DNA from: Phycisphaerae bacterium
GTDB lineage: Bacteria > Planctomycetota > Phycisphaerae > JAAYCJ01
DNA: 42,200 bases
Assembly: GCA_012729815.1 (NCBI GenBank)
Contig: JAAYCJ010000321.1
Coordinates: forward strand, 1 to 42,200
Direction of reading: 5' to 3'
Part shown: positions 2,681 through 37,354 of the stretch, piece by piece
Position numbering within the stretch: the first letter of the stretch is position 1
How the letters are laid out: every line of letters begins with the position of its first letter
Position numbers and translations under genes: made by a program
Notes under the pieces: model-generated
Seen by the model: only the letters and a program-made list of their open reading frames with translations
What the model was told of the DNA's origin: nothing
Database searches by the model: none

Positions 2681-2806
2681 CGGAAACCTCCCGTCAGAAG
2701 CGATCCGCCCAGCGGCCGACCGGTCCCCGACCGTACGTTCGGATCAGAGGCCGTCACCCACCGCATGGATCGCGGTTCCGATGGCGGCCCGACCATCGCA
2801 TAACCC

Positions 2807-2828
2807 TGCAGCGGCCCGCGCCGCTGCA
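2807..2828 (-). promoter_or_regulatory. Perfect 8-bp hairpin in the gltA leader / after the GT2 operon
   Basis: TGCAGCGG and CCGCTGCA form an 8-bp perfect stem around a 6-nt CCCGCG loop. On the minus strand it lies 103 nt past the GT2 stop codon and about 127 nt before the gltA start, just downstream of a TATAAT box. No U-tract follows it, so a simple intrinsic terminator is not supported; an mRNA-stabilising or regulatory 5' leader hairpin is equally possible. Confidence 0.45.
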
Positions 2829-2845
2829 CCCTTGTTCGCACCAGT

Positions 2846-27143: not shown

Positions 27144-28349
27144 TCAGCCGCTCACCCGATCCGCCTGCCCTGGCGAAACGGCCTCCGTCAGAGGCCGGCT
27201 GCCGGACGCGTGCGCCACCGGTTCGCAGACCTTCTCCCCGCCCGGCCGCCGCAGCGAGCGATAGATCGCCAGAACCTGTGAGGCCACGTCGTCCCAGTTG
27301 TAGTGCCGGCGGATGCTCTCGATCTGGCGGGCCTGCAGATCGGCGGTCAGCGGGCCCAGGTCGAGCCAGTGGCGAAGCCGATGCTCCATCTCGTCCTCGT
27401 CGCCCGGCCGAAAGTACCGGTCGGGCGAAAGCCCGATCTCGCGGTGGCCGGGAATGTCGCTGACCACCGCCGACAGCCCCGCCCCAAGCGCCTCGAGCAA
27501 CGCGATGGGCAGCCCCTCGTAGTAGCTCGGCAGCACGAAGAGACCCGCGTGCGAGTACAGCTCGCGCAGCGGCTGGCCCGTTACGTAGCCGGTCAGCACC
27601 ACGTTTCGGCAGTTGGCGACCTCGGCCTTGAGGCCTCGGCTGTAGGCCGTCTCGTGATCGGCGTCGCCCGCAATAACCAGCTTCCAGTCGGTCTGCAGCC
27701 GCGAAAACGCCCGCACCAGATGATGCAGGCCCTTTTCGGGCACGAACCGCGCCACCGCCAGCACGTACCGTTCCGGCTGCACCCCGAACCGCTGAAGGTG
27801 AGCCCCTTCGCGGACGCGATCGAGAATCTGAACGCCGTTGCAGATCAGGTGCGCCTCGCGGGCGAAACGAGCGCGGATATGGTCGCGGATCGACGACGAA
27901 ATCGCAATGATCTCATTGGCGTGCCGGCAACCGCACCGTTCGCCCAGCTTGAGCATCAGCTTGGCCATCGGGCCCCACTTGGCCCGCTGATAGTCCGGCC
28001 CGTGGTGTGTCATCACGACCCGAAGGCCCGTCGCCCTCGCCAGCGGCACCAGCATCGACGGCCCGATCGAATGGACGTGCAGGATGTCCGGCCGTCTGGT
28101 CCGGGCCAGAATCGTCGCCAGCGTCGAGTGGCAGATCGCCTCCAGGCTCTTGCTCGCCGGGCAAGACAGATTCACGAACCCCACCCCCTGCCACTCCCGG
28201 CGGTACGGGCGCGACAGGTACGGCTTGCGCGTGAACACGGTCACCTCGACGCCCATCCGCACGAGGCGCGGGTAGAGATGCTGACAGTGGCTCTCGACCC
28301 CGCCGGGCACGTCGGGAAAGCCTCTGGTACCGATCACTGCAATTTTCAT
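27144..28349 (-). CDS. GT4-family glycosyltransferase
   Basis: 401 residues from ATG 28349 (AAGGA 6 nt upstream; one base after the stop of the preceding methyltransferase). GT-B fold: MKIAVIGTRGFPDVPGGVESHCQHLYPRL is the glycine-rich N-terminal loop that binds the acceptor side, DILHVHSIGPSMLVPLA follows, and the donor-binding C-terminal domain has VLAVARFVPEKGLHHLVRAF and LPSYYEGLPIALLEALGAGLSAVVSDIPGHREI with the EX7E pair. Retaining transferase using a nucleotide sugar; sugar not predictable. The last 30 residues are low-complexity. Final gene of the polysaccharide operon; probably adds a later sugar of the repeat unit. Confidence 0.92.
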   Translation of the reverse strand: MKIAVIGTRGFPDVPGGVESHCQHLYPRLVRMGVEVTVFTRKPYLSRPYRREWQGVGFVNLSCPASKSLEAICHSTLATILARTRRPDILHVHSIGPSMLVPLARATGLRVVMTHHGPDYQRAKWGPMAKLMLKLGERCGCRHANEIIAISSSIRDHIRARFAREAHLICNGVQILDRVREGAHLQRFGVQPERYVLAVARFVPEKGLHHLVRAFSRLQTDWKLVIAGDADHETAYSRGLKAEVANCRNVVLTGYVTGQPLRELYSHAGLFVLPSYYEGLPIALLEALGAGLSAVVSDIPGHREIGLSPDRYFRPGDEDEMEHRLRHWLDLGPLTADLQARQIESIRRHYNWDDVASQVLAIYRSLRRPGGEKVCEPVAHASGSRPLTEAVSPGQADRVSG

Positions 28350-28350
28350 C

Positions 28351-29265
28351 TCAATCCTTTGCCGCAAAGAGGGAGAACGATTTGACGCCCAGCTCGTCTT
28401 CCGGAAACGACCGGAACCGGGACGCCAGATGGGGGCGGGTGCGCCGCACGTAGTCGCCGTCCATAATCTGGGAAGGAACCGTTCGCACGTCCCGAAAATC
28501 CAACTCGTTCATGATGCGGGCATAGTCGCTCATCAGCAGGCGGTTCGGCGAGCCCGTGAACCGCAGCAGCTTCCAGACCGGCTCCGAATAACGCAGGTGG
28601 TTCAACGGGTCGGTCGTTCGGAGAAACGACGTGTGCGCGCCGGCGTCCACCTTGTGAAGCATCATGGCCCCGGCGGCCAGCTTGTCGCGGAACCGGGCGA
28701 ACGACGCCCGTACGTCGTCAAAATGCTCCAAAACCGCTTGGCTGACAAACAGGTCGAAACCGCCGTCCGGCAGGCCGTTCAGACTGAACGCCGAATCGTG
28801 AACATAGGCGAACTCGTCCGAAAACCGCCTGTCGGCGAGGCGCTCGCCCACCCGTCGCGCCACCGCCGAACCCGGCAGGTCGTTCAGCCGGTCCAGCAGG
28901 GCCAGGTAAAACTCGCGCGGCGTTTTCGAGATCAACCGGTGCTTGTCCACCGCCGTGTAGCTCTTGGCGCCGTGGGCCAGGACGACCAGCCCCGTTCCCA
29001 GGTCGAACCCCGGTCCGACCTCCAGCACCCGCCGCCCCTCAAACGGCTCCGCGACGCCGGCAAACTTCACCAGCGCCTCACGCCAGCCCTTGACCACGCC
29101 CAACGTGTACTCCACGCTGCGCTCGATCTGCTGGCTGGTAAAGGGACGCGGCGACGTGTAGCCGATCAGACCGCGGCGAACCCGGTTGACCATGCACAGA
29201 CCCAGGCCCGTGACGTGAAGCAAGTGCTGATTCAACTTCCGCGGCGTCAACGGTCGGCTCATCAT
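28351..29265 (-). CDS. SAM-dependent methyltransferase (class I)
   Basis: 304 residues. The SAM-binding motif I is GRRVLEVGPGFDLGTGLVVLAHGAKSYTAVDKHRL (about 78-112), with the acidic residue after motif II in AVDKH; FDLFVSQAVLEHFDDVRASFARFRDKLAAGAMMLHKVDAGAH is the post-I/III part. The N-terminus starts MMSRPLTPRKLNQHLLHVTGLG. Its ATG (29265) overlaps the TGA of the upstream GT4 gene (ATGA); a second ATG at 29262 is possible. It lies between two GT4 genes of the polysaccharide operon and therefore most likely methylates a sugar of the repeat unit. It is not closely alike to FkbM-type enzymes that use a different signature. Confidence 0.88.
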   Translation of the reverse strand: MMSRPLTPRKLNQHLLHVTGLGLCMVNRVRRGLIGYTSPRPFTSQQIERSVEYTLGVVKGWREALVKFAGVAEPFEGRRVLEVGPGFDLGTGLVVLAHGAKSYTAVDKHRLISKTPREFYLALLDRLNDLPGSAVARRVGERLADRRFSDEFAYVHDSAFSLNGLPDGGFDLFVSQAVLEHFDDVRASFARFRDKLAAGAMMLHKVDAGAHTSFLRTTDPLNHLRYSEPVWKLLRFTGSPNRLLMSDYARIMNELDFRDVRTVPSQIMDGDYVRRTRPHLASRFRSFPEDELGVKSFSLFAAKD

Positions 29266-30482
29266 CTGCCTTTCCCAGTTCGTTCGTAAATCTCGATCAA
29301 CCGATGGTAGTGCCGATCCGGGCTGAGATCAACCTCAACCAGTCGCCTCGCCGTTTTGCCCATTCTAGCACACGCGCCCGGGTGGTCAAGCATAAACCGC
29401 ATCCGGGCCTGGAGTTCCGCGACGTCGCCGGGCGCAAAAGTCAGCCCCGTTTCCCCGTCGCGAACCAGTTCCGGAATCCCGCCGATCGCCGCCGCCACCA
29501 CCGGCTTGCCCATCGCGAACGACTCGACCACCGCCAGCGGGTTGTTCTCGTACCACTCCGAAGGCAGCACCGTAAACTGGGCCCGGGCCACCCGCTCCCG
29601 CAGCCCCACCCCGTTCATGTGCCCCCAGAACCGTATGTGGCCCAAAGAGTAACGGCGCACCCGAGCCTCCAGTTCCGCCCGTCCCGGACCGTCGCCCACC
29701 AGGTCCAACTCGACCGACATGTCCCGCACCGCCTCGATCAACGCACCCACACCCTTCTCCGGCGAAAGCCGCCCGAAATAGACGATCCGGCCCGATTCGC
29801 CCGCGCTCGGCTCGAACTCGCCCGCGTCGGTGAAATTCGGCAAATACTCAATCGGCCGATCGAACCCCATCTCCCGCAGCTTTTCGATCAAAAACCGGCT
29901 CGGCGAAATGAACCGATCCACCAGCCGGTAGACGCCCAACAGCCGGTGGTGCAGGTACATCTCCATCGTGCTCAACAGGCTCTTGACCCGCGAACCCTTG
30001 GTGCACCCGGTCAGCACGCACTGATAGTACCGCCCGCCGCGGCAGCGCTCGCACGGCCGCCCGTCGGCCAGCATCGCATAGGAGGCGCAGACAAGCTTGT
30101 AGTCGTGAAGCGTCATGACCGTCGGCACGCCCGCCGCCCGCGCCGCATGTATGATCGACGGCGAAAGCTGATGGGCGATATTGTGAAAGTGCACGACGTC
30201 CGGCCGGACCCGCTCCAGCATCGCCCGGAAACGCCTTTTGGCTTCGAACGAATAGAGGATGCCCGCCGCCGCCCGAAGCGACGCCATCGGCCCCAGCTTG
30301 GCGTGGTAGTCCACCGGCGGAGCGAACAGGTCCTCGTGCGGATACCGCGGATTCTCCGGGCAGTGCATGCCCCAGAAGTCCACCTCGTGCCCGCGCGAGG
30401 CCAGCAGACGGCCGGTCTCCAGAACGACCCGCTCCGCGCCGCCTTTCTGATACACGTATTTGTTGACCTGGAGTACCCGCAT
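29262..30482 (-). CDS. GT4-family glycosyltransferase
   Basis: 406 residues. N-terminal acceptor domain MRVLQVNKYVYQKGGAERVVLETGRLLASRGHEVDFWGM with the Gly-rich loop; DVVHFHNIAHQLSPSIIHAARAAGVPTVMTLHDYKLVC is the usual second block, followed by a Cys-rich insert (CERCRGGRYYQCVLTGCTKGS, about 149-169) common in this subgroup. The donor domain has IVYFGRLSPEKGVGALIEAV and LPSEWYENNPLAVVESFAMGKPVVAAAIGGIPELV, with the EX7E pair. The four Cys of the insert could bind a metal. It begins 6 nt after the Wzy-like gene's stop. It probably builds the exopolysaccharide repeat unit on the cytosolic face. Confidence 0.93.
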   Translation of the reverse strand: MRVLQVNKYVYQKGGAERVVLETGRLLASRGHEVDFWGMHCPENPRYPHEDLFAPPVDYHAKLGPMASLRAAAGILYSFEAKRRFRAMLERVRPDVVHFHNIAHQLSPSIIHAARAAGVPTVMTLHDYKLVCASYAMLADGRPCERCRGGRYYQCVLTGCTKGSRVKSLLSTMEMYLHHRLLGVYRLVDRFISPSRFLIEKLREMGFDRPIEYLPNFTDAGEFEPSAGESGRIVYFGRLSPEKGVGALIEAVRDMSVELDLVGDGPGRAELEARVRRYSLGHIRFWGHMNGVGLRERVARAQFTVLPSEWYENNPLAVVESFAMGKPVVAAAIGGIPELVRDGETGLTFAPGDVAELQARMRFMLDHPGACARMGKTARRLVEVDLSPDRHYHRLIEIYERTGKGR

Positions 30483-30488
30483 GGTCCG

Positions 30489-31937
30489 CTATGACCCTGA
30501 AATGGGAGCGACCCGCGTCCCGTGACGCCGCGCCGCTCCGGAAAGAACCAAATCCGTCACCACGATCGCCGAGCCCATCCCCAACACCAGCAGCACCTGC
30601 ATCAGGAAATTCGCCGGGTTCACCACCGCCGCGAGCACCATCATGATGATGATGCTCGCGAACAGCCCACGCTCGCGAATGAACCGGACGAACAGGCCGT
30701 GGTAGAGCGCGCCCATCGCGATCATCCCCAGCACCACGCCCCAGTAGTGGAAATTCAGGTACAGGCTCCCCATCGGCGTGGCCGGCGCGCCGCCGCCGGT
30801 GAACGTGAGCCCCAACCGCTCCTTGAGCACATAATCGAAATGCAGCGGCTTGTCCGGGTACAACCCGCGGGGAATCACCACCATCGCGTTCTGAATGTAC
30901 TCCCAGCCGTACTGGAGTTCGAACCGCCCCAGATCGATCAGACGCACCAACTGCGTGAAGTTCAGATCGTAGACCGCCTGGTAGCGCAGGCAACTGCGGT
31001 GCACCACGAAATCGACCACCGACATGTCGTCCAGGTCGAGCCCCTTGATCACGTCGGCCAGTCCGATCAGCCCGAACAGCCCCACCCCCGCCGCCAAAAC
31101 CAGCATCGGCGAAATCCGCCGATACTTGTTGTAGATCGCGATCGAAAACAGCACGACGTAGAACGCGGTCGCCCGATGGCCCGTCGTCATGAAGATCAAC
31201 CCGACCACCAACGCGATCAGCACCACGATCCGCAGCCGGCAACGGCCCGTCCGACGAAAATCGCGGGCCGCGAAAAACAACGTCCCCAGCACGGCGAAGA
31301 ACTCGCCGGTGATCTTGAAAATGCCGCTGCCGATCTCAGCCGACCGGCGCAGCCCCTCGACGTTCGTCCCGGACAGCAATCCCGGCGTCACGCCCGACCA
31401 CATGCCGTAGTACACCAGCAGCGCCGCACCCGCCGCCAGAAAACCCGCCATCACCGGCCAGTGCAGAATCGTCTGCGTCACCGGAGGCGCGACAACCCGC
31501 GGGCCGCCGCGACGGACGATGGCGTACAGCGAAACGCCCGCAAGAAAACTCAACAGACCCAAAACCTGCACGTACATCACGTTCGCGTAAAGCGTGCGGT
31601 CCGGCAGCTCCACCCGGATCAGGGCCAGCGACGGCAGGGCGTAATAAAGCGTGAAGAAAACGAACGGAAAAAAGAACGGCGAGAGGAAGTTGAAGTTCCG
31701 CCGAATCCACGAAACCGCCGTATACACCGAGAGAACGAGAAAGGGAACGACGAAACTGATCGCCTCCAGCAGCCACGTCAGGCCCTCGTCCTGCCGCATC
31801 TGCCCCACCAGCCCCATCACGCCCAGCAGCAGAAGCAGCCACAGCAACCCCAACAGCCAGCCGGAGGCGCGGCCCGTCGCGGCCGCGCCGGCAATCCTGG
31901 CGTCGATCGGCTGCATGCCCGGCGTCACACCGCTCAT
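30489..31937 (-). CDS. Wzy-like O-antigen/exopolysaccharide polymerase
   Basis: 482 residues, about 12 hydrophobic helices with few charged loops: GWLLGLLWLLLLLGVMGLVG, ISFVVPFLVLSVYTAVSWI, FFFPFVFFTLYYALPSLALI, IVVLIALVVGLIFMTTGHRATAFYVVLFSIAIYNKYR, VLAAGVGLFGLIGLADVI. The large periplasmic loop between about residues 310-390 (LRYQAVYDLNFTQLVRLIDLGRFELQYGWEYIQNAM, then PRGLYPDKPLHFDYVLKERLGLTFTGGGAPATPMGSLYLNFHY) is typical of O-antigen polymerases of the 'oligosaccharide repeat unit polymerase' type. The assignment rests on topology and neighbours. ATG overlaps the end of the pyruvyl transferase gene by 4 nt (ATGA). Confidence 0.82.
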   Translation of the reverse strand: MSGVTPGMQPIDARIAGAAATGRASGWLLGLLWLLLLLGVMGLVGQMRQDEGLTWLLEAISFVVPFLVLSVYTAVSWIRRNFNFLSPFFFPFVFFTLYYALPSLALIRVELPDRTLYANVMYVQVLGLLSFLAGVSLYAIVRRGGPRVVAPPVTQTILHWPVMAGFLAAGAALLVYYGMWSGVTPGLLSGTNVEGLRRSAEIGSGIFKITGEFFAVLGTLFFAARDFRRTGRCRLRIVVLIALVVGLIFMTTGHRATAFYVVLFSIAIYNKYRRISPMLVLAAGVGLFGLIGLADVIKGLDLDDMSVVDFVVHRSCLRYQAVYDLNFTQLVRLIDLGRFELQYGWEYIQNAMVVIPRGLYPDKPLHFDYVLKERLGLTFTGGGAPATPMGSLYLNFHYWGVVLGMIAMGALYHGLFVRFIRERGLFASIIIMMVLAAVVNPANFLMQVLLVLGMGSAIVVTDLVLSGAARRHGTRVAPISGS

Positions 31938-33322
31938 CCTGCTTCGTCTCCCGTTTCCTTCCCGCCAGCGCCGGACAGACTCCCGCTCTCGCCCTCCGCC
32001 GTCTCGCGCCGGTGCCTGCCCAATAACGCGCTGAACCGCTGGTCAATCTCGTCGTTCGCCCGGCGCACCGACGCCCGCACGCCAGCCGCCAGCGTCTCAC
32101 GATCCGCCAACCCCGCTGAGATCACGTCCCAGAGTCTCTCCTCGGTCAGTTCCGCGATATCCAGAATGAACTCCCGCGGTTCGATCATGCTGATGATCCC
32201 GAACCCTTTGGGAATCTCGTAGGCGATCGCCACCACCGGCGTGCCCGCCGACAACGCGAAGATGTTGGAGTGGATGCGCGTGCCTACGAAAAGGTCCATC
32301 GCCCCATAGAGCCCGCGCAGTTCCACCGTCGTGTAGTCGCCAGACAGCACGACCGGCCGCCCTTGCCGCACACGGCGGGCGATCTCGCGACTCACCGGCA
32401 AATCCTCCGCCGCATGCGGCATCAGGAACACCTGCGCCCCGCGCTGGCCGGCCAGACGGTCAATCGTATTGGCCAGAATCGTCAGGTACGCATCGAACCG
32501 CCCAGCCCCGTCGCCCTGAAGCGGAAAGTGCCAATGCCTGGCCGTCAGGCCGATCCGAACCGCCGCCGCGCCATCCACTTCGACGCCTTCACGGTTCAAT
32601 ACATCATGCAGTATCCGGTCGTCATCCTGTCCCGTCGGCGACTCCGGCCGCCAGAACGCCAGGTCCGGCAACAACTCGATACGAGCCGGATCAATTCTCA
32701 GTTCATCGCGCACACAGCGACGCGAAATCTCCTCGCGCACGACCACCCGCTCAAACCGCCTCATGCACGCGCCCAAAAGCCATCGGGCCGGACGCCCCAC
32801 CACCGGACCCACCGAGTGGCCCAGGGCGACGATCCGCTTGCCCAGACACAAAGCCAACAAGGACTGGTGCACCATCCGATAGACGAACAGCAACTGCGCC
32901 GTCCCGCCGTACGAGTACAGGTAGCTCCCGCCCTTGAGGATCGCCAGATCGGCCGAGCGCAGCGCCTCGAACGCGGGCCGATGACGGCGAGGGATCAGCC
33001 GGCCCGCCCGTCCGCCCAACGCCCGCACCGCCGCCAGCACCCACAGCGACACCGCCAGGTTCCACAGCGCCGAGGCCATCGCCGCCGGCCCGCGCCGACC
33101 GTCGAACACGCGAGGGAATATCGCCTGATGGTGCGCCACGCCCAACCCTCGGACGTGCTCGAACATCTTCGACGGCCCATCGCCGCCGCCCGCATAGTCC
33201 GCGTTCAGGACTTCGATCTCCGCACCCGGGCACGCGCGACGCAGCAGCAGAATCGTATTCTCCAGGATGGCAAGGTCGCCCTTGTTGCTGTCGTCGCTCA
33301 TGTTCAGGATGGCAAACCGCAA
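31934..33322 (-). CDS. Polysaccharide pyruvyl transferase family protein
   Basis: 462 residues of the PS_pyruv_trans family (PF04230). The start is a TTG at 33322 with AAGGA 9 nt upstream, giving MRFAILNMSDDSNKGDLAILENTILLL, the expected first strand and loop. ADLAILKGGSYLYSYGGTAQ and RIVALGHSVGPVVG are the central blocks; VFLMPHAAEDLPVSREIARRV and LYGAMDLFVGTRIHSNIFALSAGTPVVAIAYEIPKGFGI are the C-terminal ones, with the conserved Arg-x-His. It would attach pyruvate from PEP as a ketal to a sugar, giving the polymer negative charge. The final 30 residues are low-complexity (RRETAEGESGSLSGAGG). Overlaps the Wzy-like start. Confidence 0.92.
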   Translation of the reverse strand: MRFAILNMSDDSNKGDLAILENTILLLRRACPGAEIEVLNADYAGGGDGPSKMFEHVRGLGVAHHQAIFPRVFDGRRGPAAMASALWNLAVSLWVLAAVRALGGRAGRLIPRRHRPAFEALRSADLAILKGGSYLYSYGGTAQLLFVYRMVHQSLLALCLGKRIVALGHSVGPVVGRPARWLLGACMRRFERVVVREEISRRCVRDELRIDPARIELLPDLAFWRPESPTGQDDDRILHDVLNREGVEVDGAAAVRIGLTARHWHFPLQGDGAGRFDAYLTILANTIDRLAGQRGAQVFLMPHAAEDLPVSREIARRVRQGRPVVLSGDYTTVELRGLYGAMDLFVGTRIHSNIFALSAGTPVVAIAYEIPKGFGIISMIEPREFILDIAELTEERLWDVISAGLADRETLAAGVRASVRRANDEIDQRFSALLGRHRRETAEGESGSLSGAGGKETGDEAG

Positions 33323-33364: not shown

Positions 33365-34636
33365 CTACCGCAACAGGGCCCGCGATCGGCGGCGAATGAA
33401 CCGAACCAGGTCCCGAAATCCCTTGTGACGAAGCTTGTACGTCGCCCACGACCCCCACGACGCCAGCGGCGACTGACGATATCCCGACAGATCGGCCTCG
33501 CCAAGCCAGCGAAGCATCCGCTGCGAGCCCGCGTTCAAACCCTCCAACCGCTCCGGAATGTGGCGCTGAATGTCCTGCCACATGAAAATCTCATCCGTCC
33601 CCAGCCGCAACGCCCGTCTCGAGATGCGATCGACCACCACGTCGCCGATTCTTCCGTCGACGTCGAAGTTGCACTGCGCCGGGTCCATCCCTTCCAGCAG
33701 CAGACCCGTGATCGTCCGAAGGCATTTCTCGCACTGCCCGCAGTTCAGCGAGCCGTGCTGCGAATAGCAAATCCGCAGGTACTTGAGACACTCGGGGGCG
33801 TGGCGCACCAGATGGTGAATCTTGTCCTGCCGGCTTAGTTCGTACGCGTCATGCACCACCCGAACGTCCGCCCAGCCCATCCGCGAATCCACCGCCGGAT
33901 GCGACCCCCACGGATGCCGGAAATCCGCGGTGTGAGTCGCCGATATGACCATCGTGCCCAGCCCGTGCCGCGTCAGCGGACTCGCCGCGCCCAGCAGCAT
34001 CATCCCGTGCCCCACGCACCCCCACCACGTCTCCAGCCCGTGCAACCGCTCCAGCGGACGCTCGTTGACCAGCTCCCGCATGTTCGTCCGGACCGTCCGG
34101 ACCTCCACCCCCTGCTTCTCCGCGAACCCCACAATCCACCGCCGCACCTTCTCCCAGAACACCGCATCCTCAAACGAAATGTCCGCGCCCCAGATCGGAA
34201 TCAGCGTCGGCTTTCGATCCTGGTGCCGCGAGTAAGAAGCCAACGAATCGAGGCCCGAGCTGAACAACAGGCCCACACCCTCGTTCTCGAACCGGTTCGC
34301 CGTCACCCGCTCGGCGTCCAGTGACGCCTCGCCAGAGAACTTCGGAAACCAGCGGCGAAACTGGCCCGCCAACTCGCCCGCCGCCGCCAGAAACCGCTCG
34401 TCCACCTCGCCCACGCGAACCGTCGCGCCGGTCGCCCACGCGATCGGCATCACCGTCGAAAGCACGGGAACGTTGAGAATCGAACGCGGCACGTCCGAAA
34501 TGTCGCACGAGTATTCCGCCACGAACCGCCCGCCCAGGAAGTACCTCCGCAACGGACCCGGCACGTGGATAACCGACTCGAGCCGGTTCCGGCTGACCTG
34601 AACGTCGCCGATACGGATATCGTTCTTGGCTATCAT
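33365..34636 (-). CDS. QueC-like PP-loop ATPase superfamily protein in a polysaccharide operon
   Basis: 423 residues. After a 120-residue N-terminal domain unlike other families I know comes a PP-loop: GLLFSSGLDSLASYS (SSGLDS at 126-131, variant of SGGxDS), which binds ATP and forms an acyl-adenylate. Near the end the four-Cys zinc pattern of QueC is present: C290, C299, C302, C305 (Cx8CxxCxxC, in NCGQCEKCLRT). QueC itself converts a carboxylate to a nitrile for 7-deazaguanine, but no queuosine genes are near and the length is nearly double. Lying between the flippase and the pyruvyl transferase genes, it more likely activates a carboxylate on a sugar, perhaps to make an amide. Function unproven. 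Confidence 0.78.
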   Translation of the reverse strand: MIAKNDIRIGDVQVSRNRLESVIHVPGPLRRYFLGGRFVAEYSCDISDVPRSILNVPVLSTVMPIAWATGATVRVGEVDERFLAAAGELAGQFRRWFPKFSGEASLDAERVTANRFENEGVGLLFSSGLDSLASYSRHQDRKPTLIPIWGADISFEDAVFWEKVRRWIVGFAEKQGVEVRTVRTNMRELVNERPLERLHGLETWWGCVGHGMMLLGAASPLTRHGLGTMVISATHTADFRHPWGSHPAVDSRMGWADVRVVHDAYELSRQDKIHHLVRHAPECLKYLRICYSQHGSLNCGQCEKCLRTITGLLLEGMDPAQCNFDVDGRIGDVVVDRISRRALRLGTDEIFMWQDIQRHIPERLEGLNAGSQRMLRWLGEADLSGYRQSPLASWGSWATYKLRHKGFRDLVRFIRRRSRALLR

Positions 34637-34652
34637 CTGAAACTCGGAGACC

Positions 34653-36017
34653 TCATGGTGATTTATCCACGACGGCTGGGCATGACGCCGGCTGCGGCGA
34701 CGATACGCGATTATAGAAAACCGCCCGAAGATAGAAAAGCAGAAAAAGCGACGTCAAGCCGCCGGCCAACGCGATCCCGGCCACGCCCAACCGCCACATC
34801 AGCAGGTAGTTCATCGCCACCTTCAATACCGTGAACGCCGCCCCGTACGTCACGAACACCGCCGTGAAACGCAGCGACAGCAGCCCCCGCAGGTAAATCC
34901 GCCCGATCGTGTTCGGCAGCAGCCCCAGCATCAGGCACGCCATCACCCAGCCGACCAGGCCGAGGCTCTCGCCGTCCAGCGCGCCCCGCCCGTAGGCCAG
35001 ACGCGCGATCGGCTGGTGCAGCAGCACGAAACCCACCGTCAGCAGCGCCACCATCGGCATCACCACCCGCACGCTCTTGCGCACGTCCTGCCGCAGCCGC
35101 TCCGGTCCGTGCTGGCAGTAGTTGATGCTGAAGTGCGACAGCATCGCCACCAGAATCCCGCCCGTCACGAACGTCACCGGAATCATGTACAGCGTGTCCG
35201 CGTAGTGAAGGATCGAAACCTGGCTCTCGCCCAGCCACGACGCCATCGCCTTGTCGATGATCGGCTGAAAACCCACCGCCACCATCCCCGTCATCTGCAG
35301 CGAACAGTCCTTCACGAAGGCCCCGAACCGCGGCGCGACCCTCAGCGACCATCCCAGCTTCATCAGCCGAAACGCCTTCAGCGCGACCAGCAGAATCAAA
35401 AAACGCGACAACTCGCCGATCACGTACCCCCAGACGATCGCGTGGACGCCGAATCGGTCCTTCATCGCGTAGATCACCGCCAGGTTGACCCCCGCCCGGA
35501 ACATCGGCGAAAGGGCCGCCAGGGCAAAGTGACGGTACGCGTTCAGCACTCCCGCCGTCACGCTGGTCAATACGATCAGAATCACCAGCGGCGCCATCTC
35601 CAGCAGCAGGCGGTGGATCAACGCCAACGACGGCGCGTCAAAGTTGGCCACCACCACCAGCACCGGTTTGACCAACAGCAGGAACACCGCCGCCAGCACT
35701 GCCATCGCCCCCGCCCCATACACCATGATGTTGCCCACGAACGCGCCCACGTCCTGGCCCTCCTGCCGGGCCTGCACCACGTGAGGCACGATGATCGTCT
35801 CGATCACCGGGGCGAACAGCAGCGAGAGGAACAGCACCATCGAGTATGCGAAAAACAACGCGTCCGTCTCGGTCGTCGCCCCGAACCACGCCGCGATGAA
35901 CAGCGGCACCAGGAACCCCGCCGCCTTCCCCACCGCCGACAGCACGGTCGTCGAAACCGCGTCACGAGCCAGCGGGCTGCCAAGTATTCGAGCCTTCCAC
36001 GAGGCGAGCCAGGTCAT
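34653..36017 (-). CDS. MurJ/Wzx-like lipid-linked oligosaccharide flippase
   Basis: 454 residues, about 13-14 transmembrane helices, of the MurJ/MviN branch of the MOP exporter superfamily. AVSTTVLSAVGKAAGFLVPLFIAAWFGATTETDALFFAYSMV is the N-terminal signature; FAPVIETIIVPHVVQARQEG, ALIHRLLLEMAPLVILIVLTSVTAGVLNAYRHFALAALSPMF and LHYADTLYMIPVTFVTGGILVAMLSHFS follow the MurJ pattern closely. The position directly after the Wzz-like gene and before the sugar-modifying enzymes makes it the exopolysaccharide flippase of this operon rather than the housekeeping lipid II flippase; a second, true MurJ should exist elsewhere. It ends 16 nt before the PP-loop gene. Confidence 0.87.
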   Translation of the reverse strand: MTWLASWKARILGSPLARDAVSTTVLSAVGKAAGFLVPLFIAAWFGATTETDALFFAYSMVLFLSLLFAPVIETIIVPHVVQARQEGQDVGAFVGNIMVYGAGAMAVLAAVFLLLVKPVLVVVANFDAPSLALIHRLLLEMAPLVILIVLTSVTAGVLNAYRHFALAALSPMFRAGVNLAVIYAMKDRFGVHAIVWGYVIGELSRFLILLVALKAFRLMKLGWSLRVAPRFGAFVKDCSLQMTGMVAVGFQPIIDKAMASWLGESQVSILHYADTLYMIPVTFVTGGILVAMLSHFSINYCQHGPERLRQDVRKSVRVVMPMVALLTVGFVLLHQPIARLAYGRGALDGESLGLVGWVMACLMLGLLPNTIGRIYLRGLLSLRFTAVFVTYGAAFTVLKVAMNYLLMWRLGVAGIALAGGLTSLFLLFYLRAVFYNRVSSPQPASCPAVVDKSP

Positions 36018-36085: not shown

Positions 36086-37354
36086 TCACGCGCTCTTCCT
36101 CCTCGAACCGCGATCCTGCGGCGCCCAGGCCAGCACGAACGCCAGCAGCGCCGCGCCGATACCGCCCGCAAAACCGCTCGCCAGCACGTTCTTCTTCAGA
36201 TTCGGCTTGACCGCACGCTTCAGGTACGCCGCCTCGGCCACCACCTCGATATCCTCGATCGCGTCCTTGTTGATCTCCAGCCGGGCGATCTGCCGCGACG
36301 TGTCCTGAATCTTCGCCGGAAGCTCCTTGTCCTTCTTCAGGGCCAGTTTCTCGATCTCCTGTTCGAGTTGCTCGACCGCCGACTCGTTCTCGATCTGGAG
36401 TTGCCGCGACTCCTCCGCGAACGTCGCCACCGACGTCCGAAGCCTCTCGATCTCGATCGTCGCGTCGCTGATCTGCAACTCGCACGTCTTGACCCGGTCA
36501 TACGCGTCGTCCACCAGGTTGATGCCGTTCTGAATGTTGTTGGCCAGCAGAATGCCCGAAATCGCGTCCGATTCCTGCGTCGTCGGCAGCGCCTCGCGAC
36601 TCCTCAGCAACTCCTGCGTGTTGTTCTCCAGCAGGCCCAGCATGCCCTCCAGCTTCCCCTTGACCGCCGCCAGATTCTCGACCCGTCGCTCCCGGTGGGC
36701 GATCTCCTCCTTGGCCCCGCGAATCTGCTCCGCCTTCTTGCGGACCGACACCTCCGTCACCTGGTTGGCCTCCGCGATCTGGCTCCGCAGTGCTTCGATC
36801 TCCGCCCCCGCCACCTCCCGCTCAACCTCCAGAATCTTGACCGCCTCGTGAAGCTGGTCGATCTCGGTGATCAGGATCGCCCGCTGCCGTTCGGCCCGCG
36901 GATTGAACGCGTCCTTGATGTGCTTGATCAGCGAGTTGGTCACCTTGATCCCGACCTCCGGCTCGGCCGTCAGGCAGTTCAGGTAGATGATCTCCCCGCC
37001 GCCCGCCGCGTGGGCGTTCAGGTCGCTCATCAGCATCGCGGCATACCGCGCCTCATCCAGCGACAGGCCCTCCAGAACCACCTTCGCGAAACTCCCCTTC
37101 TTGACCAGTTGCACCACGTCGTCCGCCCGGGCGATGTACTGCGACTGGTCCCCCGCCAGGCCCGCGCGCCCCAGCCGCAACGCCGCCGTCACCTCGTACT
37201 CCTTCGGCAGCATCATGCTGACCGCCCCCGCCGCCAATGCCACCAACACCGTCAGCACAATGATCATCCGCCGGCGATCCCACAGGATCAGCCCGTACCG
37301 CATCGGATCGATCCGCTCCTCCACGTAGGAAGGCGCATCCTGCCGGTCAACCAT
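36086..37354 (-). CDS. Wzz-type chain-length determinant / polysaccharide co-polymerase
   Basis: 422 residues. Two transmembrane helices at the ends (MIIVLTVLVALAAGAVSMML, about 30-49, and ASGFAGGIGAALLAFVLAWA, about 394-413) frame a long periplasmic coiled-coil (ITEIDQLHEAVKILEVEREVAGAEIEALRSQIAEA and TCELQISDATIEIERLRTSVATFAEESRQLQIENESAVEQLEQEIEKLALKKDKEL). KEYEVTAALRLGR is the Wzz beta-strand signature. There is no cytosolic tyrosine-kinase domain. It controls chain length of Wzy-made polymers in the inner membrane. First gene of the operon; GGAG lies 7 nt before the ATG, strong promoter at 37405-37433. Confidence 0.88.
   Translation of the reverse strand: MVDRQDAPSYVEERIDPMRYGLILWDRRRMIIVLTVLVALAAGAVSMMLPKEYEVTAALRLGRAGLAGDQSQYIARADDVVQLVKKGSFAKVVLEGLSLDEARYAAMLMSDLNAHAAGGGEIIYLNCLTAEPEVGIKVTNSLIKHIKDAFNPRAERQRAILITEIDQLHEAVKILEVEREVAGAEIEALRSQIAEANQVTEVSVRKKAEQIRGAKEEIAHRERRVENLAAVKGKLEGMLGLLENNTQELLRSREALPTTQESDAISGILLANNIQNGINLVDDAYDRVKTCELQISDATIEIERLRTSVATFAEESRQLQIENESAVEQLEQEIEKLALKKDKELPAKIQDTSRQIARLEINKDAIEDIEVVAEAAYLKRAVKPNLKKNVLASGFAGGIGAALLAFVLAWAPQDRGSRRKSA

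Follow-up and report, generated by a model that had tools for sequence, protein, structure and literature searches.

Genes and features at the locus

The window, the whole stretch of DNA that was analysed, comprises 42,200 nucleotides. The focal gene lies on the minus strand in a run of genes with the order Wzz, Wzx, focal gene, PF04230, Wzy, GT4, SAM methyltransferase and GT4. The genes and the features within the focal gene are the following.

36086..37354, minus: Wzz-type chain-length determinant (PF02706)
34653..36017, minus: Wzx/MurJ-type flippase (PF03023, E 1e-40)
33365..34636, minus: focal gene, QueC/QatC-like PP-loop protein of 423 aa with ATG start (translation)
34283..34636, minus: N-terminal extension, residues 1–118, predicted separate α/β domain (model)
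34244..34261, minus: PP-loop SSGLDS, residues 126–131 (translation and alignment of 138 relatives)
33887..33916, minus: HPWGSHPAVD segment, residues 241–250 (HHalign against QueC)
33830..33832, minus: R269, invariant in 138/138 relatives (alignment)
33722..33769, minus: zinc-type motif C290-x8-C299xxC302xxC305, predicted site (translation and alignment)
31934..33322, minus: polysaccharide pyruvyl transferase, CsaB/WcaK-like (PF04230; R-x-H motif kept)
30489..31937, minus: Wzy-type repeat-unit polymerase (TIGR04370, 51.7 bits, cut-off 40)
29262..30482, minus: GT4 glycosyltransferase
28351..29265, minus: SAM methyltransferase
27144..28367, minus: GT4 glycosyltransferase

Both flanking genes share the strand of the focal gene: the flippase gene lies 16 bp upstream of it, the pyruvyl transferase gene 42 bp downstream. 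Beginning with the flippase gene, all intergenic gaps are in the range of -17 to +42 bp. Thus, the cluster looks like a single transcription unit for a Wzx/Wzy polysaccharide pathway. A previous interpretation of this DNA from its letters alone (the sequence-only reading) had placed the gene in an exopolysaccharide operon, and the Wzz, Wzx and Wzy genes around it, with the flippase and the pyruvyl transferase on either side, bear this out. The nearest NCBIfam model of the pyruvyl transferase is CsaB, followed by WcaK. Distant from the focal gene, the window also contains an nhaA-I RNA (RF03057, 62.7 bits; 2779-2831, minus strand), which belongs to a cis-regulatory riboswitch class.

Fold, conserved residues and spread of the family

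The focal protein matches no Pfam or NCBIfam family. A sequence search of the PDB gave nothing meaningful (just two ORMDL matches at chance level), and zero matches were obtained by tblastn against 50,697 phage records, in PHROGs and with the PADLOC models, the QatC model included. The translation contains SSGLDS at residues 126–131 and an exact Cx8CxxCxxC (C290, C299, C302 and C305) within 423 residues, as the sequence-only reading had stated. These predicted PP-loop and zinc-type motifs are well above chance expectation.

For pattern searches the alignment A2 was used, since the broad alignment A1 contained too much diversity. Among 138 aligned relatives, G128 of the PP-loop is present in 138 and D130 in 137. 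The cysteines C290, C302 and C305 are strictly conserved (138/138), C299 is found in 137 relatives and R269 in all 138, and P247 and D250 are about 90% conserved. The SSG of the window copy is a variant, as 132 of the 138 relatives have [ST]GG. Loss of the PP-loop and zinc residues in most relatives, an outcome considered in the sequence-only reading, was not seen; practically all 138 keep both.

An AlphaFold2 model of the focal protein (45 sequences) has a mean pLDDT of 93.4 and a pTM of 0.90. In a Foldseek search of the PDB with this model the top match is QatC (9y02_B, E 3.7e-07, 424 aligned columns, TM 0.40). The low TM despite alignment over the full length indicates that the domain orientation is probably different. 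QatC is followed by the QueC proteins of B. subtilis and Erwinia (probability 1.00; TM by target 0.68 and 0.62, respectively) and then by Cap9 (9nto_B, probability 0.97), and TtuA is among the weaker matches (E 0.009). The N-terminal 118 residues, modelled alone with a pLDDT of 94.9, have the strand order β-β-α-β-α-β-α-β, and the additional N-terminal domain that had been proposed is predicted to fold as a separate α/β domain (residues 1–118). Its strand-helix order (34283-34636) is of the RNase H type. Compared with PDB folds on its own, this domain has zero significant matches, the best being weak ones to reverse transcriptases (E 0.002, TM ~0.4). The earlier label "QueC-like" is apt for the predicted QueC-superfamily fold, the PP-loop and the zinc motif, whereas the closest solved architecture is that of QatC and not of QueC.

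HHalign of the family profile with seven true QueC proteins extends over 194 columns from the PP-loop to the zinc site (Prob 96.4, E 1.2e-9). The canonical substrate motifs of QueC are YxQxHxxE, VPxRN and YPDC (PMC13329287). The first two were not found in the family by this comparison, and the CDG-recognition motif YPDC is replaced by PWGS, so that Y and D are gone. Canonical QueC membership was rejected on this basis. PF06508 (QueC) does not match the window protein, so that its gathering cut-off is not reached; it matches 10 of 45 relatives with a best E of 0.0023.

Queuosine genes are not linked to the family. In 36 carrier genomes, whose coordinates were compared by hand, family genes never adjoin a gene for PTPS, a QueE-like protein or a true QueC, and linkage with queD or queE, part of what had been weighed as the opposing case, was thus found in 0/36. 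The window contains no other queuosine gene, as had been noted before; the true QueC, PTPS/QueD-family and best QueE-like genes of this genome are all on other contigs. One Halovivax and two Dependentiae genomes with family genes have no convincing QueC, PTPS or QueE match (both Dependentiae assemblies are MAGs and possibly incomplete). Loss of YPDC together with these carriers rules out CDG as a general substrate, and a role as a queuosine enzyme was rejected. The Halovivax genome (sp. KZCA124, L056) may depend on deazaguanine salvage; related haloarchaea have the three genes.

Relatives are present in 23/294 genomes of the phylum of the window and, with a narrower model, in 17/298 genomes of its class. 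In a genome sample weighted towards haloarchaea, 77 family loci were found in GTDB genomes of haloarchaea, Bathyarchaeia, Thermofilaceae, ANME-1, Dehalococcoidia, Bacillota, Flavobacteriia, Dependentiae and Omnitrophota. The family also occurs in cyanobacteria, Azospirillum and the phylum of the window, and on 28 plasmid records (including Haloterrigena, Natronorubrum, Priestia, Azospirillum and Gloeothece). In every annotated region inspected the relatives are annotated as "hypothetical protein".

A quick tree separates the family into two clades, A and B. The window gene groups in clade A with members from archaea, Bacillota and Flavobacteriia; the rows closest to it come from Dehalococcoidia and Bathyarchaeia. 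Clade B holds the majority of the members from the same phylum, a distribution that suggests horizontal transfer of the family gene. Two or three family genes stand in tandem at nine loci (L050, L117, L125, L154, L155, L016, L077, L062 and L123), suggesting multiple substrates or heteromeric enzymes. Clade-B relatives on IMG/VR contigs (L128, L131 and L132) adjoin tail-fibre, baseplate or endolysin genes. This is a typical position of prophage cargo and is compatible with serotype conversion.

Association with PF04230 pyruvyl transferases

Because picking genes by BLAST gave noisy results in GC-rich loci and overlooked some genes, PF04230 was checked by Pfam over whole genomes. It is the most frequent adjacent gene of the family. 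In 24 carrier genomes, 15 of 38 PF04230 genes are located within ~3 kb of a family gene (hand count), where 0.13 are expected by chance from the genome sizes. Where the locus contains PF04230 (19 lineages), the two genes are direct neighbours in 14 lineages (P 1e-9 for a 1-in-8 position model with random placement among ~16 genes; the lineages are not fully independent). The only PF04230 gene in the genome of the window is the direct neighbour of the focal gene, and several other carrier genomes likewise have one PF04230 gene each, adjoining the family gene.

The pairing recurs in two separate clades. In Azospirillum, the two genes form a stand-alone cassette, flanked by a multicopper oxidase on one side and a molybdate transporter on the other. 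The order in Flavobacteriia is UDP-glucose dehydrogenase, flippase, family gene, PF04230 and methyltransferase, so that flippase, family gene and PF04230 follow each other as in the window. UDP-glucose dehydrogenase genes are present in several family loci. The PF04230 partner proteins have invariant N-x-G-D and Arg residues and keep the R-x-H motif. In Pvg1p, R217, R337, L338 and H339 were modelled as contacting PEP (PMC6801904). Given this Pvg1p-like pattern, the partner is probably an active ketal-pyruvyl transferase. A functional partnership of the focal gene with PF04230 in the window operon is considered quite probable. The sequence-only reading had recorded the pyruvyl transferase without singling out PF04230 as the most informative neighbour.

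Two groups of loci count against the best explanation. In the haloarchaeal members, which make up much of clade A, PF04230 is missing from the neighbourhood, and the genes nearby encode epimerases, UDP-glucose dehydrogenases, Gfo/Idh/MocA oxidoreductases, polysaccharide deacetylases, flippases and glycosyltransferases. In the phylum of the window, many clade-B members are surrounded by unrelated genes with no glycan gene among them. Bulk Pfam scans of the loci without PF04230 (mostly clade B) revealed mixed neighbours and no second common partner.

Proposed reaction and relation to known systems

Fold, conservation and gene context together point to family membership and to a surface-polysaccharide role. 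Such a role in surface glycan synthesis is very likely. The chances are about even for the full explanation, in which the focal gene represents an undescribed QueC-superfamily ATP pyrophosphatase family with a QatC-like N-terminal extension that acts in surface polysaccharide assembly by the reaction proposed next.

QueC adenylates a carboxylate and converts it via the amide to the nitrile (PMC13279940, PMC13329287). By analogy, the PP-loop of the family enzyme would bind ATP, and a carboxylate of the repeat unit, or of its precursor, would be adenylated with release of pyrophosphate. Attack on the adenylate by an amine, either ammonia or a small amino compound, would then give an amide-type product. 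Adenylation of a carboxylate is favoured with some reserve. The CDG-binding residues and the adenine-contact region differ from those of QueC and QatC, which counts against it, as the reaction could have drifted. Of the earlier proposal that a sugar carboxylate is activated, the polysaccharide role stands, whereas QueC-like carboxylate chemistry remains an analogy because the canonical QueC substrate motifs are gone.

In loci with PF04230, the target would most likely be the carboxylate of the pyruvate ketal installed by the PF04230 enzyme; a uronate carboxylate is the possible target in haloarchaea and wherever the locus encodes UDP-glucose dehydrogenase. An amide on the pyruvate ketal specifically is doubtful. 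A nitrile product is possible, but the simpler assumption is an amide or amine conjugate. The joint reading is tentative: a QueC-scaffold enzyme and a ketal-pyruvyl transferase may together equip cell-surface polysaccharides, from archaea to flavobacteria, with a masked-carboxylate group, meaning a pyruvate ketal amide, nitrile or amine conjugate.

The same activation chemistry could instead produce another sugar-linked group, such as a nitrile, an amidine or a thio-acid by TtuA-like sulfur transfer. The acid-to-amide-to-nitrile sequence of QueC is in line with this, as are TtuA among the fold matches and WbpG, a PP-loop protein that acts on an O-antigen sugar (PMC13329287). However, the CxxC(x)6CxC signature of WbpG is missing, the TtuA match is weak and the window operon has neither a sulfur-carrier nor a HisH/HisF-like partner gene, which makes this alternative improbable.

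It is also rather unlikely that a small acid is activated and attached N-terminally to a protein of the polysaccharide machinery (e.g. the PF04230 enzyme or an assembly protein), thereby controlling it. The full-length fold match to QatC and the strict pairing with one other gene would suit such a modification, and Cap9 and QatC are QueC relatives that have shifted to protein substrates, QatC by supposition (PMC13279940, PMC13329287). On the other hand, the PF04230 partners are themselves enzymes with their N-G-D, Arg and R-x-H residues kept, the haloarchaeal members have different neighbours and the STRTTHP-type substrate motif of QatC is missing from the family.

A phage-defence gene of the QatC kind, located by chance in variable surface-polysaccharide islands, is very unlikely. 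It would account for the QatC-like architecture and for the relatives on prophage-like contigs near tail-fibre and baseplate genes, but such copies fit serotype conversion equally, in each of two separate clades the family is paired with a single, specific glycan enzyme and PADLOC gives no match for the window protein and weak ones in 5/45 relatives. Action on CDG as in QueC, with deazaguanine decorating an amino sugar or lipid, is highly implausible: superfamily membership and the queuosine genes elsewhere in the genome agree with it, but Y and D of YPDC are gone and carriers without detectable QueC, QueD and QueE exist.

If the proposed glycan-modifying role is confirmed, new glycan chemistry would be added to the tasks of the QueC scaffold, giving the superfamily another functional branch next to deazaguanine synthesis and phage defence, and many "hypothetical" genes would gain a function. 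The family points to a new non-carbohydrate substituent of surface polymers, and the question of the QatC reaction could gain a tractable relative. No paper tying QueC-like proteins to polysaccharide pyruvylation was found in the literature. A 2026 survey of the QueC superfamily was built on PF06508 members and says nothing of polysaccharide or pyruvyl loci (PMC13329287); the family is outside this survey because it scores below PF06508.

QatC of the qatABCD anti-phage defence system is the nearest in predicted architecture, with an N-terminal α/β extension followed by a QueC core with PP-loop. A four-cysteine zinc site and a helical C-terminal tail are also common to both proteins. They differ in the zinc spacing, C(x)19CGxCxxRR in QatC and Cx8CxxCxxC in the family, and in the T278/T280 (STRTTHP) motif of QatC, which the family lacks (PMC13329287, PMC13279940). 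In QatC the CDG residues are lost with two threonines in their place, and its activity was not reconstituted (PMC13279940), a point that counts against the reaction proposed for the family. The neighbours in the window, judged by Pfam, are glycan genes and not qatABD. The best of the weak PADLOC QatC matches among the relatives has an E of 0.0023, and with no match for the window protein a known defence family was rejected.

QueC (7-cyano-7-deazaguanine synthase) shares the core fold, the SGGxDS-type PP-loop (SSGLDS in the window copy) and Cx8CxxCxxC with the family, and is distinguished by its substrate motifs, by queD/queE linkage and by its lack of the N-terminal domain. Cap9, the deazaguanylation enzyme of type IV CBASS, couples CDG onto a protein N-terminus (PMC13279940, PMC13329287). 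It has the QueC core, PP-loop and zinc motif, but its CDG-binding YxDC motif is intact and an N-terminal extension is missing. Membership in Cap9 was rejected since this motif is replaced in the family (HHalign), and no CD-NTase gene, a neighbour of Cap9, is among the neighbours in the window. DUF6395 (PF19932) weakly matches 11/45 family members (best E 1e-4) and does not match the window protein; this separate Pfam family looks like a neighbouring uncharacterised PP-loop family. A Priestia megaterium plasmid that carries a family gene also encodes a DUF6395 protein (L161:19290-20606, minus strand) with an N-terminal region, SGGVDS and a C..CxxCxxC-type motif.

Closest in proposed chemistry are the uronamide enzymes of the WbpS/WbqG type, which amidate a sugar carboxylate in an ATP-dependent manner and are encoded beside wzx genes. 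They belong to the AsnB family (asparagine-synthase-like), are not QueC-like and have no zinc motif. Uronamide formation by the AsnB-like WbpS is thus a precedent, from another family, for the proposed reaction (PMC7468200).
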